Origin: Tranzscheliella williamsii | Taxonomy: Eukaryota; Basidiomycota; Ustilaginomycetes; Ustilaginales; Ustilaginaceae | Reading direction: 5' to 3' | DNA: 64,000 nucleotides | NCBI GenBank assembly: GCA_023212725.1 | Contig: JALBYF010000001.1 | Location: 62,001 to 126,000 of the forward strand | Shown: piece after piece, positions 54,390 to 63,387 of the stretch | How the letters are laid out: every line of letters begins with the position of its first letter | How positions within the stretch are numbered: position 1 is the first letter of the stretch | Made by a program: the position numbers and the translations under genes | Notes under the pieces: model-generated | What the model saw: the letters and a program-made list of their open reading frames with translations, nothing else | The model's database searches: none | What the model was told of the DNA's origin: nothing

Positions 54390-55105
54390 GCGCACTTGCT
54401 CAACATGCCCAAAATCTAGCCTCTATACACACTCTCCCTTGCTGTCGCCCATGCAGCCAGGGCCTTTACTGTGCCCCTTTCACTCGGGGCATGTCTACAC
54501 ACACAATGTCATTCCGCATTGCTCGCATCAGCCGTCCATCGCTGTGTGTGGTAAAATAGACCCCGCCGGAAGCCGTTCGGCAAGCTTCGGCAAATTTGAG
54601 CGCATTTCAGAGCCGCGTTTTGAGTTGAATGGTGTTAGAGTGAGAGAGCAAGGGAGGAGGCTGCCTCTGTTAGATTGATTCGTGAGGAAGTGACGCGTGA
54701 AGACAAGTTTCGGAGCCGACAAAGCTGAGCTGGAAGGCGCACGGATGACCTGGCGTGGGCTTGTCTGTGCCACGTTCAGCCGTGCCTGGTCCAGTCAAGC
54801 TTCCGTTCAGACGGCATCAACCTAGACCCATCCGACATCTTACCGATCATCTGTCACGGTAGCCCTCGTCTCGCTCACCGGCCCCCCCCCATTTGCCTTG
54901 ACTGCACCGCACAGCAGTGTCGCTCGGCCTCAGCGACATACGCGCAAGAGACAGGTACCGGCTACTTGCATCTCAGCATCGAACATCCCGCTCGTGTAAC
55001 AGAATCACCGCTGTCGTTCGCTCGTCCCTTCTCAACACTTCTTGCGAAGAACACCGGTGTTGCTTTTTTGAAGGTCCACGGGCTGAGAACCAGTCATCTA
55101 CCGTA
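54390..55105. other. Intergenic region between PDI1 and SEC24
   Basis: These 716 bases contain the PDI1 3' end and the SEC24 promoter. The frame of SEC24 is open upstream to 54917, but without an ATG before 55106. No other feature is seen. Confidence 0.5.
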
Positions 55106-58100
55106 ATGAACCCACAGCAGGGCCAGCCCGCGCAGGGCTACCCGCAACAAGCGCCGTTTCAAGGCCAGATGCCTCCCCGACCTGGCCAGCCACCGATGTT
55201 GCCACAGCAGCATCTGCAACATCCGCAGCAGCAGCATCAACAGCAGCAGCAGCAAGGCGCTCGACCGCCGCCACCGGCAGGGACACAGCCGAGGCCCGCC
55301 CCAGGCATGCCGTTTGCGAGGCCCTCGGTCTCGCCAGCACCGCCAGGCGGGCCAACCGCTCCTCACCCTCATCACTCGTCTATGTATCCTCAAGGAGCAC
55401 GACCGCCGGCTCAGCGTCCCTTTGGTTCTGCACCACACGGCGCGCCAAGCCCTCAGAACGGACTCCATCCGAATCAGGCTCCTCAAGGTAGGATCAGCCC
55501 GCGGCCTCCCGCTCCGCAAGGCGGCATGCCCCAGCAGGTCCGGCAGCCGTCTCTCGACGCACAGATGGCAGGCATGAGCATGCAAGCTAGACAGCCCAGC
55601 CCCGCTCCGGCGGGCGGCATGCAGTCTCCGCCACCGGCCGACCTGGCGGACCAAGGACCTGCCAAGACCAAGAGGAGCGCGCGAGCCTACCATACGGATG
55701 CACAGGCTCAGCCCGCCGCCGGCTGGAATGACGCTCCCACCCAACCAAATCCGCCACAGGCTTCATGGCAGCAGGCCGCCGCCGCCAGAGTGGCTCAGCA
55801 CGAGAGTCAATATGACGCCAATGGTGCCGACTCTGCACTCGACCAGATGCCAGGACAGCGCAACGTGCTCTCGCCGGCTCAAGCCGCCCATAACCGCGCC
55901 ATGATGGGCCAAGCAGGTCCCGGCGGGGCGGGTGCTCGGCCCAACATGCCGCAGCAACAGCAGAGCACTGTGCCTGGCATGCAAGCCGCGCTCGGCCCGC
56001 AAGCCGGCGGAGCCATCAATCAGCCCCCGCATCAAGCCGGCCAGCGCTTCGCCGGGCCCCGGTCCAAGATCGACCCCGACCAGATCCCAAGCCCTGTAGA
56101 GATGCAAGATGCCGACCAAGAGTTTTTCGACAAGGAGTGGTTCGCGACATGCGGCCGAGGTGGCATGCCGCTCAGCACCACGAGCTTCGCTGCCGTCGAC
56201 CAGGGTAACTGCTCTCCGCGCCATCTGCGTCTGACGACGTACAGCATGCCAGCCACGGACGAGCTCGCCACGACTTCCCAGCTTCCGCTCGCACTGATGC
56301 TGCAGCCGTTTGCCCAGCTTCGTCCGGATGAGGCGCCGGTGCCTGTTGCTACCTTTGGCGAGAGCGGACCGCCGAGATGCAAGCGCTGTCGTGCCTACAT
56401 CAACGCCTGGTGCATATTTATCGAGGGCGGCCAGAAATGGTCCTGCAATCTGTGTGGAACGGCTACCGAGGTGGCCGCCGACTACTTTTGCAACCTCGAC
56501 ACCAGCGGGCGGCGTGTCGACTTTGACCAGCGACCAGAGCTGTCGCGAGGCTCAATCGACTTTGCAGTGCCCAAAGAGTACTGGGCTATCCAGTCCACGC
56601 CTCCCTCATCGGTGCTGTTGCCCGTGGCGCCCGCTAGCACCCGAACCGAAACTGCCAAGCTGTCCCCCAAGCCGGACCAGAACGCCAACGAATACGAAGG
56701 AACCACCTTGGGACTCAGCGGCCAAGGTGCCCAAGCCGCTAAGTCCGCCACGAAGGCCGCCAACGAGGCTTTCAACCAGCTGCAGATTGGCAAAGGTAGG
56801 ACAACGGTACGCGCGCCCCGACCCTTGACGTACCTCTTCGCTATCGACGTCAGCTACAGTTCTGTCCGCTCCGGGGCGCTCAAGAACTCTGTTGACTCGA
56901 TCCGCGAAAGCTTGTACGGCCCCAAGGCGGATGCAGAGGGCGGCGCCAACGGCGTGCCGGACGCCGATCCGAACGCGGGACCTGGCTTCGGTCTGCCTCA
57001 CGGCAGCAAGGTAGCCATTATTACCTTTGATCGTGCTCTTCACTTCTACAACCTCAGCGCCGAGCTCGATCAGGCTCAAATGCTCGTTGTCGGCGATATC
57101 GACGAGCCTTTTGTGCCCATCAGCGACGGCCTCTTGGCCGACCCGTGGGACTCGCGTCATCTGATCGAGGGCCTGCTCGACAATCTGCCCAATCTCTTCG
57201 CCGAGAGTATGGTGGGCGACGCTGCTCTGGGTGCAGCTATTCGCGGCGCCCAGGCGGCGCTCTCCACGATTGGCGGGCAGGTCAACATCTTCCTCTCCAC
57301 GATCCCCACCCTTGGACCCGGGGCTCTGAAGCACCGAGAAGACACCAAGCTGTACGGCACAGACAAGGAAAAGAACCTGTTTGTGCCGCAAGACGGTTTT
57401 TACCGCGGTGTGGCAGAGGAGTGCGTGGACGCCGGTATCGGTGTCAACGTGTTCTTCTTCCCTTCGCAGTACATCGACGTTGCTACGATCGGGATGCTGC
57501 CGGGCTTGACTGGCGGAGAGGTCTACTTCCATCCTCGGTTCGACTCGGTTCGTGATGGCGTCAAGCTGCAGAGCGAGATTCGACGTACGATCCTGCGAGA
57601 GACGGTGTACAACGTCACCATGCGGCTGCGCTGCTCCAACGGGCTGCGGGTCGCGGATCACTTTGGCAACTTTTTCCAGCGAAACGTCACCGACCTCGAG
57701 GTGGGCAACATGGACGCGGACAAGTGCATTGCTGCGCTGATCAAGCATGAGGGCAAACTGGACGAAAAGCACGAGGCGCATTTCCAGTGCGCGGTGCTGT
57801 ATACAACGGCCGAGGGCGAACGCAGGGTTCGGTGCCACAACATTGCGGTCCCCATTACGTCCCTGCTGGGCAACGTATTCCGGTACGCCGATATGGACAG
57901 CACGGTGGCGTACTGCACCAAGGAGGCGATCTCGTTGGCTCACACCAAGCCGCTCAAGGAGGTGCGGCACTATCTGACAGACAAGTGCGTCAAGATCTTG
58001 CTCGCCTACCGACGGAACTGTGCGTCGTCGACCAGTCCAGGCCAGCTGATCCTGCCGGAGAGTTTCAAGCTGTTCCCGCTGTATACGCTTGCGATCAACA

Positions 58101-58738
58101 AGACCAAATGCATCAAGGGCGGCAACGTGACGTCGGACGTGCGTGCATTCTACATGCGCTTTTTCCGGGCGCAGGGGGTGGGCGCGATCATGGCGATGCT
58201 GTATCCGCGGATGATTGCGCTGCACACCATGACGGATGCGGACGGCGCGCCGATCAAGCTGCAGCAGGACGATGGCAGCACGCTGGATGGGGTGCGGATC
58301 AAGACGCCACCGCTGATGCGGCCCTCGTATCTGCGCATGGAAGGGCACGGCGCGTATCTGCTCGAGAACGGCGAGATGTGCATCTTGTGGCTCGGTGCAG
58401 CTGCCAACCCGCGGCTGCTGGAAGACCTGTATGGCGTGAGCAGCCTCGAGGAGATCGATCCGCGCATGACGCGTCTGCCAAAGCTGCCCACGCGTCTCTC
58501 GCAGCAGGTCCGCGCCATCATCCAGTCGTTTGCCGCGCAGAGGAACAAGCCCGAGCTGCCCGTCCTGATCGCACGGCAGAACCGCGACGGCACCGAGGTC
58601 GAGCTCGCCAACAGCCTGGTCGAGGACCAGAACAACGACGCAATGAGCTACGTCGACTACCTCTGCCACGTCCACCGCATCATCAGCTCCGACATGACCT
58701 CCGGCAAGGACGAGTCGTCTTCCTGGTTCTCCTCCTGA
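55106..58738 (+). CDS. SEC24: COPII coat cargo adaptor Sec24
   Basis: One exon of 1210 residues begins MNPQQGQPAQGYPQQ at 55106. Sec24 pairs with Sec23 in the inner COPII coat and selects cargo for export from the ER. The first 310 residues are Pro/Gln/Gly-rich and disordered, including a Gln run coded by CAG repeats near 55240. The Sec23/Sec24 zinc finger lies near residue 424 (CKRCRAYINAW, then WSCNLCG). The trunk domain follows (RPLTYLFAIDVSYSSVRSG, GSKVAIITFDRALHFYNL, FFFPSQYIDVATIGMLPGLTGG). After it come the beta-barrel (RETVYNVTMRLRCSNGLRV), the helical domain (VRHYLTDKCVKILLAYRRNC) and the gelsolin-like domain (LENGEMCILWLGAAANPRLL). The protein ends after VHRIISSDMTSGKDE and a short Ser tail. 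The trunk acidic cargo pocket was not checked residue by residue. Confidence 0.97.
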   Translation: MNPQQGQPAQGYPQQAPFQGQMPPRPGQPPMLPQQHLQHPQQQHQQQQQQGARPPPPAGTQPRPAPGMPFARPSVSPAPPGGPTAPHPHHSSMYPQGARPPAQRPFGSAPHGAPSPQNGLHPNQAPQGRISPRPPAPQGGMPQQVRQPSLDAQMAGMSMQARQPSPAPAGGMQSPPPADLADQGPAKTKRSARAYHTDAQAQPAAGWNDAPTQPNPPQASWQQAAAARVAQHESQYDANGADSALDQMPGQRNVLSPAQAAHNRAMMGQAGPGGAGARPNMPQQQQSTVPGMQAALGPQAGGAINQPPHQAGQRFAGPRSKIDPDQIPSPVEMQDADQEFFDKEWFATCGRGGMPLSTTSFAAVDQGNCSPRHLRLTTYSMPATDELATTSQLPLALMLQPFAQLRPDEAPVPVATFGESGPPRCKRCRAYINAWCIFIEGGQKWSCNLCGTATEVAADYFCNLDTSGRRVDFDQRPELSRGSIDFAVPKEYWAIQSTPPSSVLLPVAPASTRTETAKLSPKPDQNANEYEGTTLGLSGQGAQAAKSATKAANEAFNQLQIGKGRTTVRAPRPLTYLFAIDVSYSSVRSGALKNSVDSIRESLYGPKADAEGGANGVPDADPNAGPGFGLPHGSKVAIITFDRALHFYNLSAELDQAQMLVVGDIDEPFVPISDGLLADPWDSRHLIEGLLDNLPNLFAESMVGDAALGAAIRGAQAALSTIGGQVNIFLSTIPTLGPGALKHREDTKLYGTDKEKNLFVPQDGFYRGVAEECVDAGIGVNVFFFPSQYIDVATIGMLPGLTGGEVYFHPRFDSVRDGVKLQSEIRRTILRETVYNVTMRLRCSNGLRVADHFGNFFQRNVTDLEVGNMDADKCIAALIKHEGKLDEKHEAHFQCAVLYTTAEGERRVRCHNIAVPITSLLGNVFRYADMDSTVAYCTKEAISLAHTKPLKEVRHYLTDKCVKILLAYRRNCASSTSPGQLILPESFKLFPLYTLAINKTKCIKGGNVTSDVRAFYMRFFRAQGVGAIMAMLYPRMIALHTMTDADGAPIKLQQDDGSTLDGVRIKTPPLMRPSYLRMEGHGAYLLENGEMCILWLGAAANPRLLEDLYGVSSLEEIDPRMTRLPKLPTRLSQQVRAIIQSFAAQRNKPELPVLIARQNRDGTEVELANSLVEDQNNDAMSYVDYLCHVHRIISSDMTSGKDESSSWFSS

Positions 58739-59497: not shown

Positions 59498-61332
59498 ATG
59501 GCGATGCCCCGAGTCTTCCTGGCGCGGCACGGCGAGACCGAGTGGTCGATCTCCGGCCAGCATACGGGGCGCTCCGACATCCCGCTGACGCCGCACGGCG
59601 AGGAGGTGATGCGGCAGCTGGCGCCCAGCATTGTCGGCGTCGGCAACGGCAAGCTGATCGACCCGACCAGGCTCAACCACATCTTTGTCAGTCCGCGCAA
59701 GCGGTCGCAGCGCACGCTCGAGATCATGTTTGAGCACTTGGCTCCCTCTGACCGCGCCGATATTCCGGACACCGAGATCGTCCAGGACTGCCGCGAGTGG
59801 GACTATGGCGCGTACGAAGGGCTCAAGACAGACGACATCCGCAAGTCGCATCCCGGCTGGGACATCTGGACCGAAGGCACCCCGGACCATCCCGAGCGGC
59901 CCGCCGACCTGCCGGGAGAATCGGCACAGCACATGTCCGACCGCGTCGACGCGCTCATCGCCCGAATTCGCCAGCTCCAGTCCGGCCACGTAGACAAGCG
60001 CAACCGCGGCGACGATGTGCGCGGCAAATCTTGCGACGTTCTGCTCGTCTGCCACGGCCACTTTAACCGCGTCTTCATCGCCCGCTGGCTCGGCCTGCCG
60101 CTCCCCAACGGCAAACTCTTCGAGATGGATCCCGGCGGAATGGTGGTCCTAGGCTACGCCCACCACTCGTTCAGCGAACCCACCGTCGCAGGCATCTTCT
60201 CCTCCAAGACCGGGCCCCGCGCCGACAACAACGGCTCAGCCACCGGCCCCGGCAGCGTGGCCCAACACCAAGAGTCGCAGTACCTTGAGCTGGTCTCCCG
60301 TGTCATCGCCTCTGGTGAACACCGGCCCGACCGCACAGGCACGGGCACCCTGGCCCTCTTTGCACCGCAGCCGTGCCTGCGCTTCGACCTCTCGGACAAC
60401 ACGCTGCCGCTGCTCACCACCAAGCGTGTCTTCTTTCGCGGCGTCCTGGAGGAGCTGCTCTGGTTCGTCGCCGGCAAGACCGACTCCCAGCTTTTGACGC
60501 AAAAGGAGGTCCATATCTGGGACGGCAACGGTTCCAGAGAGTTTCTCGACGCCCGCGGGCTGCAGCATCGCCGCCAGGGCGACCTCGGTCCGGTCTACGG
60601 CTTCCAGTGGCGCCACTTTGGCGCCGAGTACAAGGACTGCGACACCGACTATACGGGCCAGGGCGTCGACCAGCTCAAGCAAGTGATCGACAAGATCAAG
60701 CACGACCCCACCGACCGCAGGATCATCATGAGCGCCTGGAATCCCAAGGGTAAGTGCGGCGGTATGTCTCGCGGGGGCTGTGCGGGGTGCCTGACTGACG
60801 CGTCTTGCGCTGTGGCCGTGGTGCAGATCTGGGGCTGATGGCGCTGCCGCCGTGCCACATGTTCTGCCAGTTCTATGTCTCGAATCTGGACGCGCATGCC
60901 CGCGGCGAGGGGCGCAAGCAGCTGTCGTGCCAGATGTACCAGCGCTCGTGCGATCTGGGGCTGGGCGTGCCGTTCAACATTGGCAGCTATGCGCTGCTGA
61001 CGCGCATGGTCGCCGCGGTGACCGACTGCGACGCCAAGGAGCTGGTCCTGGCCATGGGCGACGCGCACGTCTACGCCGACCACGTCGCGCCACTGCAGAG
61101 TAAGTCCGTCTGCCGCCCCCCGCGCTGCCCCAGCGCCACCAGTCTAACCCTTTACCCCCCCACCCCACCCCCTCCGCGCCCCCGTACAGCCCAGCTCGAG
61201 CGCGACCCGCTCCCCTTCCCCAAACTCCACCTCAAGCGCGCCGTCACCGACATCGACGACTTCCGCTTCGACGACTTCGAGCTGCTCGGCTACCGCTGCC
61301 ACGCCAAGATCGACATGAAGATGAGCGTCTAG
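59498..61332 (+). CDS. Fusion: Shb17-type sugar bisphosphatase (histidine phosphatase) joined to thymidylate synthase
   Basis: Three exons, 59498-60749, 60827-61099 and 61190-61332, encode 555 residues; introns of 77 and 90 bases are GT-AG. Residues 1 to about 235 are a histidine phosphatase closest to yeast Shb17, which dephosphorylates sedoheptulose 1,7-bisphosphate. The blocks are [16 protein letters not shown] (H11), [11 protein letters not shown] (E100), VCHGHFNR (H186) and [13 protein letters not shown] Gly/Ser/Asn linker (about 236-256) follows. Residues about 257-555 are a complete thymidylate synthase: [55 protein letters not shown] with catalytic C427, [12 protein letters not shown] and [10 protein letters not shown]. 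Both domains lie in one uninterrupted exon up to residue 417, with no stop or splice signal between them. No Met suited to a separate synthase start lies in the linker. Both active sites look intact. Confidence 0.93.
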
Positions 61333-61636: not shown

Positions 61637-63387
61637 TTACAAGACGGTGAAGACGCGGACAATCTTGTCAGAGTAGCCGGCAAAGAGGGTCTGGCCATCG
61701 GCGGACCAGGCGAGCGAGAGGCACTCGGGGTCGGCCGAGTTCTTGCCGACGCCGGTGAACTCGGGCTTGAGCTCGTCGACAATGCTCTTGGACTCGAGAT
61801 CAAAGATCTTGATGCAAGAGGCAGTGGCAGCGCAGAGCCAGTAGCGGTTGGGCGAGAAGACGAGCGCGTTGACAGTGTCACCAGCCTCGAGCGAGTAGAG
61901 GTGCTTGCCCTCGGACAGCTCCCAGAGCATAGTGATGCCGTCCTTTCCGCCGGAAGCGCAGAGCGAACCATCGGGGGAGACGGTGACAGTGTTGATGTAG
62001 CCAGTGTGGCCAGTGTGGTTGGTCTTCAACTTGCACTTGTTCAGATCCCAGACCTATCGATTTGTTCAGCAGCCGGGGAGGAGCGCGCAGCGTGTCAGTA
62101 TGCAAATCCCTTTCAAGGGGCACCAAGAACTTTGGGCCTGCTGGCTGCGTGGAGGTAGAAAGAACTCCTCCTGACGGGTCTCCTTGTCCCGCCGTATCCA
62201 ACAGGGAAAGCTCAGTGATCTTGGTGACTTAAAGATATTCTCATCGAGCTATGCTCTCTATAGTAGCAAATATATAAAGCACTCTTCATCGCAATCCCTT
62301 TCTTCCGGCCATTGCCGGCAGCAAGCCCAGCCTCTTTTTCATCCTGAATTGCAGCAGCAGCAGCAGCAGCAGCAGCAGGCCAGGAGCCAGTGGTAGAACT
62401 TACCTTGACAACCTTGTCCCAACCAGCAGAGACAATGACGGGGTTCTCGGGGTTAGGGCTGAATCGGACGCAGCTGACCCACTCAGAGTGGCCGTCGTCG
62501 GTGATGTTGAACTTGCACTCGCCGAGGGTGTTCCAGAGCTTGATGGTGCGGTCTCGGGAGCCGGAGACGATCTGTCGGTTGTCGGCGGAGAAGGAGACGG
62601 AGAGGACATCGGCAGTGTGGCCGACGAATCGTCGGGTGGTGGTGCCCGTGTTCAGGTCCCAAAGTCGGAGGGTCTTGTCCCACGAGGCAGAGAGAGCGAA
62701 CTGGCCGTCCGAGGAGATGACAATGTCGGAAACAAAGTGGTTGTGGCCGTGGAGGATTCGCTTGGGGTATCCGTAGTTGGAGTCGTCTCGCGACAGCTGC
62801 CAGACGATAATGGTGCGGTCTCGCGAGGCCGTCAGCAGAAGGTCGGGGTTCTCCTGAGACGTGGCGATGGCGGTGATCCAGCCCTTGTGGCCGGCGAGGG
62901 AGCCCTTGTAGACGAGAGACTCAGACCTGTGCATCGGACAAGAATAAGGTCAGGATACGGCTTTCAATGGGGATCATCGGAAACGAGACCATGCAGCATG
63001 CCCTTCCAACTCCCGCGCCCCCAACAACGTAAGGACAATGCCGCTGCTCGACGTCCGGCTCCAGAGGACAGCAACGTCGACGTCAACGTCGACGAACCAA
63101 GCAGAGACTGCTGAGAAAGCGGCCGTTCGGCACTGCCGAGTAATTGACCGGCTGCGGTCCTTTGGCAGCATGACGCGCATCTCCCAGCGGCCCTGTCGAG
63201 TCGCGTGCGACGAGCTGACTGCCCTCCAAAACCATCGTGATGTGTGTCTCCCATGCCCGTTCCGGTAGAGCTGTTGTATATCAACAGCCAGTCCCAATTC
63301 GCTTCTGCTTCGCCGCTCCTTTGCTACGATAGGCAGACCCCGTTGGCAGCATGCTGAGGCCTCGACACGGAGGGCGACGACTTACAT
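61637..63387 (-). CDS. ASC1: RACK1/Asc1 ribosome-associated WD-repeat protein
   Basis: The model has a start codon split by an intron: A and T at 63387-63386, then G at 62926. Exons are up to 63386, then 62926-62404 and 62053-61637, encoding 313 residues, the usual RACK1 length. The N-terminus then reads [17 protein letters not shown], as in the family. Seven WD repeats are present, for example [52 protein letters not shown] and [13 protein letters not shown]. The protein sits on the 40S head near the mRNA exit and links signalling to translation; the Ustilago orthologue is Rak1. Intron 1 is 459 bases (GTAAGT to CACAG) and intron 2 is 350 bases (GTAAGT to GATAG) and carries a U24 snoRNA. Without the split-codon model no ATG precedes the conserved N-terminus in a suitable frame. 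Confidence 0.94.
62206..62297 (-). ncRNA. snR24: U24 (snR24) C/D box snoRNA inside RACK1 intron 2
   Basis: On the minus strand the intron contains box C GCGATGA (62292-62286), the guide ATATTTGCTACT, an internal C' box TCGATGA, the second guide TCACCAAGATC and box D CTGA (62215-62212). Short complementary flanks (GGGA and TCCC) can form the terminal stem. The two guide stretches are, from memory, those of yeast snR24 and vertebrate U24, which direct 2'-O-methylation of large-subunit rRNA. Yeast SNR24 also lies in the ASC1 intron, so host and guest are conserved. Box C has C instead of U at its second position. Ends are approximate. Confidence 0.85.
62351..62378 (+). repeat. Nine-copy GCA repeat near the 5' end of RACK1 intron 2
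   Basis: The plus strand reads GCA nine times, which is TGC/CTG on the transcribed strand. It begins 25 bases inside the intron from the donor site and lies outside the snoRNA. Confidence 0.9.

Follow-up and report, generated by a model that had tools for sequence, protein, structure and literature searches.

A predicted fusion of a Shb17-type sugar bisphosphatase with thymidylate synthase in Tranzscheliella williamsii and other Ustilaginomycotina

Why would a sugar phosphatase and a thymidylate synthase (TS) be encoded as a single polypeptide? The question is raised by one gene in a 64-kb stretch of the Tranzscheliella williamsii genome (the window, meaning the whole stretch of DNA analyzed here), which an earlier note had described as a Shb17-type histidine phosphatase running in one open frame into a TS, and which it had proposed to couple pentose supply to DNA precursor synthesis. 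We find that this gene very probably encodes a genuine two-enzyme protein in which both enzymes are predicted to work, and that the fused gene looks old and conserved, across smuts, their relatives and the Malassezia skin yeasts. Whether the link between the enzymes is useful or merely retained is an evenly balanced question.

Two enzymes and the join between them

The N-terminal half carries the features of branch 1 of the histidine phosphatases, namely R10-H11-G12, E100 and H186 (which we take to be the RHG motif, the acid/base glutamate and the second catalytic histidine) together with the fold predicted for the phosphatase modeled alone, and it matches Pfam His_Phos_1 (PF00300) at 123.5 bits. 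Across 33 fusions (the window protein plus those 32 of 48 relatives that are at least 480 amino acids long), residues R10, H11, W16, H22, T23, S65, P66, R67, R69, E100, W101, Y103, H186, G187, H188 and H222 are invariant; of 116 stand-alone proteins, 105 keep H22 and at least 115 keep any given one of the remaining residues. The closest solved relative in a PDB sequence search is yeast Shb17, and the phosphatase groups with fungal Shb17-like proteins in our trees, where yeast Shb17 itself appears only in a quick 78-row tree, as a partial long row. Alignment places equivalents of yeast R12, H13, T25, R69, E99, H176, R181 and H244, which we presume to bind substrate, in the window protein without exception, and the equivalent of R181 (R191) is the only one lost in any fusion (4 of 33). 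The profile for Rv3214-type acid phosphatases (NF009993) scores 124.8 bits, below its cut-off of 226, as do two stand-alone fungal relatives (139.8 and 122.9 bits).

The phosphatase half is of the Shb17 type and is predicted most likely to act on sedoheptulose 1,7-bisphosphate (SBP) and/or fructose 1,6-bisphosphate (FBP) through a phospho-His11 intermediate. Yeast Shb17 dephosphorylates aldolase-made SBP and thereby feeds the pentose phosphate pathway (PMC8151747, excerpt), and in Kluyveromyces lactis deletion of shb17 worsens the slow growth caused by deletion of fba1 (PMC11817168, excerpt). The yeast enzyme, also named YK23, has both fructose-bisphosphatase (FBPase) and sedoheptulose-bisphosphatase activity without a metal cofactor, and Rv3214 likewise acts as an FBPase (PMC4535450, excerpt); a table in the excerpt of PMC8151747 lists Mg2+ for Shb17, and the two sources thus disagree on metal. 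The sequence does not fix the substrate, because such relatives include an FBPase and have broad sugar-phosphatase activity (PMC4535450, excerpt). We consider it unlikely that the phosphatase acts on an ester other than SBP or FBP, such as a phosphate of a nucleotide or vitamin pathway.

The C-terminal half is an ordinary TS, predicted to convert deoxyuridine monophosphate (dUMP) to deoxythymidine monophosphate (dTMP). It matches Pfam Thymidylat_synt (PF00303) over residues 261–555 at 355.4 bits (cut-off 24.3) and contains DRTGTGT at 278, PTDRR at 404, C427 in PPCH, QRSCDLGLG at 456, GDAHVY at 495 and the terminal KMSV, motifs that we take to serve folate and dUMP binding and to provide the hydrophobic C-terminus.

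The coordinates, the length of 555 residues and the positions of H11, E100, H186 and C427 in the earlier note were all borne out (table 1), and its description of one open frame holds for exon 1, in which the phosphatase, linker and first half of TS are free of stops over 1252 bases (the other two frames contain 8 and 5), but not for the rest of TS, which is joined on by the splicing of two introns. Alternative splice choices that stay open within the short ranges scanned give 556, 559 or 560 residues and alter the protein only near the introns.

Table 1. Coordinates of the fused gene and its parts in the window
Feature	Position	Strand	Remarks
Fused gene	59498–61332	+	3 exons, 2 introns; product 555 amino acids
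Shb17-type histidine phosphatase domain	59498–60205	+	Residues 1–236; Pfam His_Phos_1 at 6–225
Linker	60206–60268	+	Residues ~237–257; low model confidence in Sporisorium reilianum homologue P0001
TS, first part (remainder of exon 1)	60269–60749	+	Pfam; PDB sequence search
Intron 1	60750–60826	+	GTAAGT...CAG (GT..AG)
TS, exon 2	60827–61099	+	Carries catalytic Cys427 (LPPCH); splice prediction, alignment
Intron 2	61100–61189	+	GTAAGT...CAG (GT..AG)
TS, exon 3	61190–61332	+	C-terminus ...KIDMKMSV, then stop; splice prediction, alignment

At the join itself, no GTRNGT splice donor is found at 60100–60320 and no AATAAA-like polyadenylation signal at 60100–60340, the only ATGs at 60100–60320 (60125 and 60140) are in frame and within the phosphatase, and the linker contains no ATG, stop, GTRNGT donor or polyadenylation signal. 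Third-position G+C runs from 0.86 in the phosphatase through 0.95 in the linker (19 codons) to 0.85 in the first part of TS. In the predicted structure used for the linker, that of the S. reilianum homologue P0001, the predicted local distance difference test (pLDDT) falls below 50 at residues 238–253. The stretch between flanking anchors measures 39–67 residues in the 27 of 33 fusions in which both anchors were located, and the linker sequence is not conserved.

An assembly error or merged gene model could in principle produce such an architecture, and a probably merged model does occur elsewhere in our set (P0036, 959 amino acids, which continues past TS). Nothing in the window favors this explanation, however, and it is ruled out by independent fusions (44 of the 120 homologues listed have both domains) and by the exon that stays open across the join; we regard its probability as negligible. 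A separate start for TS is conceivable in some species: in 12 of the 33 fusions, a methionine replaces Ile233 of the window protein (60194–60196) at the end of the phosphatase domain and may provide a second, separate start for TS. The window protein lacks this methionine, and no general methionine column that could serve as such a start exists across the 33 fusions.

The gene lies between a Sec23/Sec24-family protein upstream (54917–58738, forward strand) and a WD40 protein downstream (62212–62934, reverse strand) that looks RACK1-like by eye. No cell-cycle promoter motif ACGCGT occurs from 58739 to the start of the fused gene; words related to it give single matches, to which we attach no weight. 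No RNA family reaches its gathering threshold in the window.

Distribution and origin of the fusion

The best 120 of 7987 matches to the whole protein and the best 120 of 6405 matches to the phosphatase alone were examined. Among the former, 44 carry both Pfam domains, in agreement with the fusion and domain calls of the earlier note; the closest match listed is S. reilianum (84% identity), and the 19 two-domain entries with organism names all belong to Ustilaginomycotina. They comprise Ustilaginomycetes (Sporisorium, Testicularia, Melanopsichium, Kalmanozyma, Pseudozyma flocculosa, Violaceomyces and Thecaphora), Exobasidiomycetes (Exobasidium, Tilletiopsis, Parajaminaea, Tilletiaria, Sympodiomycopsis and Tilletia) and six Malassezia; Parajaminaea, Tilletiaria, Violaceomyces and Malassezia were placed in classes by taxonomy look-up, and the remaining genera sit where we presume them to belong. 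That closest match supports a smut-like origin. The fusion is not confined to smuts, being found in Exobasidiomycetes and Malassezia as well.

Outside this group, the matches listed include TS alone (~305–350 amino acids) in named Agaricomycotina, one member of Pucciniomycotina (Cystobasidiomycetes sp.) and several early-branching fungi, and separate Shb17-like proteins in Tremellomycetes, Agaricomycetes, Pucciniomycotina, Wallemia and ascomycetes. Neither 120-match listing contains a named member of Ustilaginomycotina in which TS or the phosphatase is intact and stands by itself; the sole phosphatase-only entry listed from a named member is a 192-residue model from Ceraceosorus bombacis (P0124), which stops before the second catalytic histidine. 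Moniliellomycetes do not appear among the matches listed in either search.

Two genes most likely fused once, in an ancestor of Ustilaginomycotina. The careful phosphatase tree has 67 rows (omitting P0019, P0037, P0211, the yeast part, P0121–P0124, P0164, P0209 and P0235), and its 31 fused rows fall on one side of a branch (bootstrap 100, 200 of 200 bootstrap trees; Shimodaira–Hasegawa-like approximate likelihood ratio test, SH-aLRT, 96); the 33 fused rows do likewise in the TS tree, a quick one with 57 rows that retains the long, poorly modeled row P0037 (SH-aLRT 98). The unfused side holds ascomycetes in the phosphatase tree and Mucoromycota, Glomeromycota and Kickxellales relatives in the TS tree, and from fungal relations as we understand them the root presumably belongs there.

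A single origin is challenged by the quick 78-row phosphatase tree, in which fragments were kept: five unfused rows lie among the fused ones and, at face value, the fused/unfused label needs six changes, at least four of them forced by starred branches. We suspect that these five rows are incomplete predictions. P0122, P0123 and P0164 group with Exobasidiomycetes and all break off at the HGHxxR arginine, which is where the TS piece P0049 takes over; this shared break fits an exon boundary and suggests an intron inside the phosphatase domain of those Exobasidiomycetes-like sequences, at a place where the gene of the window species has none. P0121 apparently shifts to a different reading frame, and P0124 is a short model.

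Three further entries are irregular. P0056, from a 1.9-kb contig of Golovinomyces magnicellulatus, is 84% identical to the window phosphatase domain and then, by eye, enters a wrong frame of TS; it is probably a smut-like contaminant or hyperparasite in a powdery-mildew assembly. P0036 (Malassezia cuniculi) lacks the end of TS (profile positions 2–252 of 266) and runs into a stretch that is membrane-like by eye, and P0019 (Tilletia controversa, 622 amino acids) has an extra C-terminal tail and lacks the stretch around PTDRR; both are probably gene-model errors.

What the fusion may do

The separate SHB17 and TS genes that the earlier note proposed to look for were sought in the 18.18-Mb genome, exon by exon and scoring best candidates only, so that absence here means not found; no second TS or Shb17-like locus came to light. 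The TS profile matches this locus only, in three exon pieces. PF00300 matches 10 places, which were read in six frames; against the yeast Shb17 part, this locus scores 117 bits and the next two 39.6 and 30.8. The second-ranked place was rejected as another Shb17 on that score and looks by eye like an ordinary phosphoglycerate mutase. The dihydrofolate reductase (DHFR), classical FBPase and transaldolase families have their matches at other places in the genome; the search thus turned up no Shb17-like enzyme besides the fused domain, which is not, however, the sole FBPase-type gene.

In our reading, a flexible linker connects a Shb17-type sugar-bisphosphatase, most likely dephosphorylating SBP and/or FBP through phospho-His11, to the N-terminal end of TS. 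Both activities would then be present and, we infer, act through one promoter at a fixed 1:1 ratio, which is our preferred role and would involve no metabolite channeling. Transketolase, phosphoribosyl pyrophosphate synthesis, the uridine monophosphate pathway and ribonucleotide reduction lie between sedoheptulose 7-phosphate and dUMP. Direct channeling is implausible because of these many reactions and of the variable length between anchors. For the same intervening steps, and given the non-conserved linker and the broad activity of relatives, the coupling of pentose supply to DNA precursor synthesis proposed in the earlier note would go no further than co-expression at a fixed ratio, the form that the data allow.

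Nearly as probable as not is that both domains work with no coupling function at all, the genes having fused by chance and the fusion having been retained since TS is essential and the join harmless; this account shares its first half with the preferred one, and the probabilities of the two do not sum to one. It would explain a linker conserved in neither length nor sequence and two enzymes that presumably share no metabolite. Moreover, yeast deleted for shb17 shows no distinct growth phenotype (PMC8151747, excerpt), and tight coupling is therefore not needed in yeast. It fits less well with three classes of different lives among which no named member with either intact enzyme alone was listed, although such long retention is weak evidence of benefit because fission is rare anyway.

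A different role, in which the phosphatase regulates TS or supports it structurally by stabilizing the dimer or by sensing sugar bisphosphates to tune TS, would remove the phosphatase largely from pentose metabolism. TS is a dimer. Yeast Shb17 is given as 2 × 31 kDa (table in PMC8151747, excerpt), and a single dimer could combine the two. The phosphatase of the Malassezia clade changes faster, and four of the 33 fusions lack Arg191. Conservation of the other tested catalytic residues in 33 of 33 fusions, needless for a scaffold, and the failure to find another Shb17-like locus make this role improbable, even more so than a different phosphate ester as substrate.

In the four fusions (P0024, P0026, P0030 and P0034), Arg191 (60068–60070, in the HGxxxR motif) is replaced by S, I, N or K; all sit inside the clade of the named Malassezia and keep the other tested catalytic residues. 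The same arginine is replaced in four partial sequences (P0038, P0041 from M. pachydermatis, P0043 and P0048). An altered substrate and a weakened activity are both possible in this subgroup. We compared rates as the ratio of −ln(identity) in the phosphatase to that in TS, omitting P0019, P0035, P0036, P0037 and P0039; the pairs are not independent and the values are descriptive only. Sixteen non-Malassezia fusions give a ratio of 1.44 (120 pairs), 15 species in which the genes are separate give 1.85 (105 pairs) and 12 Malassezia-clade rows give 2.22 (66 pairs), the phosphatase of this clade thus being faster relative to TS; comparing Malassezia with the other fusions gives 2.33 (192 pairs). 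A decaying phosphatase is unsupported among non-Malassezia fusions (1.44 vs. 1.85 in unfused species). The ratio is raised, however, when non-Malassezia fusions are compared with unfused species (2.17, 240 pairs), which would be compatible with a period of faster change along the stem of the fused clade.

More speculatively, the bisphosphatase and TS may operate as one enzyme throughout an entire subphylum, so that the enzyme making dTMP for DNA replication also sets how much ribose the non-oxidative route supplies, with real cross-talk because the two share a dimer, because sugar bisphosphates regulate TS or because regulation runs the other way; we consider this doubtful, if less so than either the scaffold or the other-substrate account. 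The fusion would provide a natural test of the link between pentose supply and DNA-precursor synthesis and a candidate molecular marker of Ustilaginomycotina. Databases already hold it, with named entries called thymidylate synthase or hypothetical, unnamed or uncharacterized protein, and the phosphatases of smuts and Malassezia accordingly sit under "thymidylate synthase". A search of the open-access literature, covering titles and abstract openings, found no paper describing a Shb17-TS fusion, which is no proof of absence.

Comparison with known systems

The fusion is a new combination of two known enzymes. Its phosphatase finds its top sequence and fold match in Saccharomyces cerevisiae Shb17/YKR043C/YK23 (PDB 3f3k, 3ll4 and 3oi7), with which it shares the aligned catalytic residues; the yeast enzyme differs in standing alone, in having ~32 extra residues in the stretch 193–226, and in carrying Tyr24 where the fusion has His22. 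The second-best match, Rv3214/GPM2 of Mycobacterium tuberculosis (PDB 2a6p), has HTG (YTG in yeast), HGHFxR and LPLxxGxxF in common with the fusion but is bacterial, stand-alone and of broad specificity (PMC4535450, excerpt). For the other half, the top PDB sequence match of the window TS is that of Cryptococcus neoformans (PDB 2aaz), to which the TS portion of P0001 shows 71% identity and the same fold by structure alignment; unlike the fusion, the C. neoformans enzyme has no N-terminal phosphatase.

TS is an essential drug target best known for its fusion to DHFR; were a second partner, unrelated to DHFR, conserved this widely, TS would gain a new architecture. The fold-search rows printed for the full-length predicted model are TS only or TS with DHFR. 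Pfam finds no DHFR domain (PF00186) in the window protein, and DHFR matches lie on another contig. In the DHFR-TS of protists and plants, DHFR uses the folate product of TS; here the partner is a sugar phosphatase. What the two architectures share is the position of TS at the C-terminal end, an arrangement that frees the C-terminus that closes over the TS active site.
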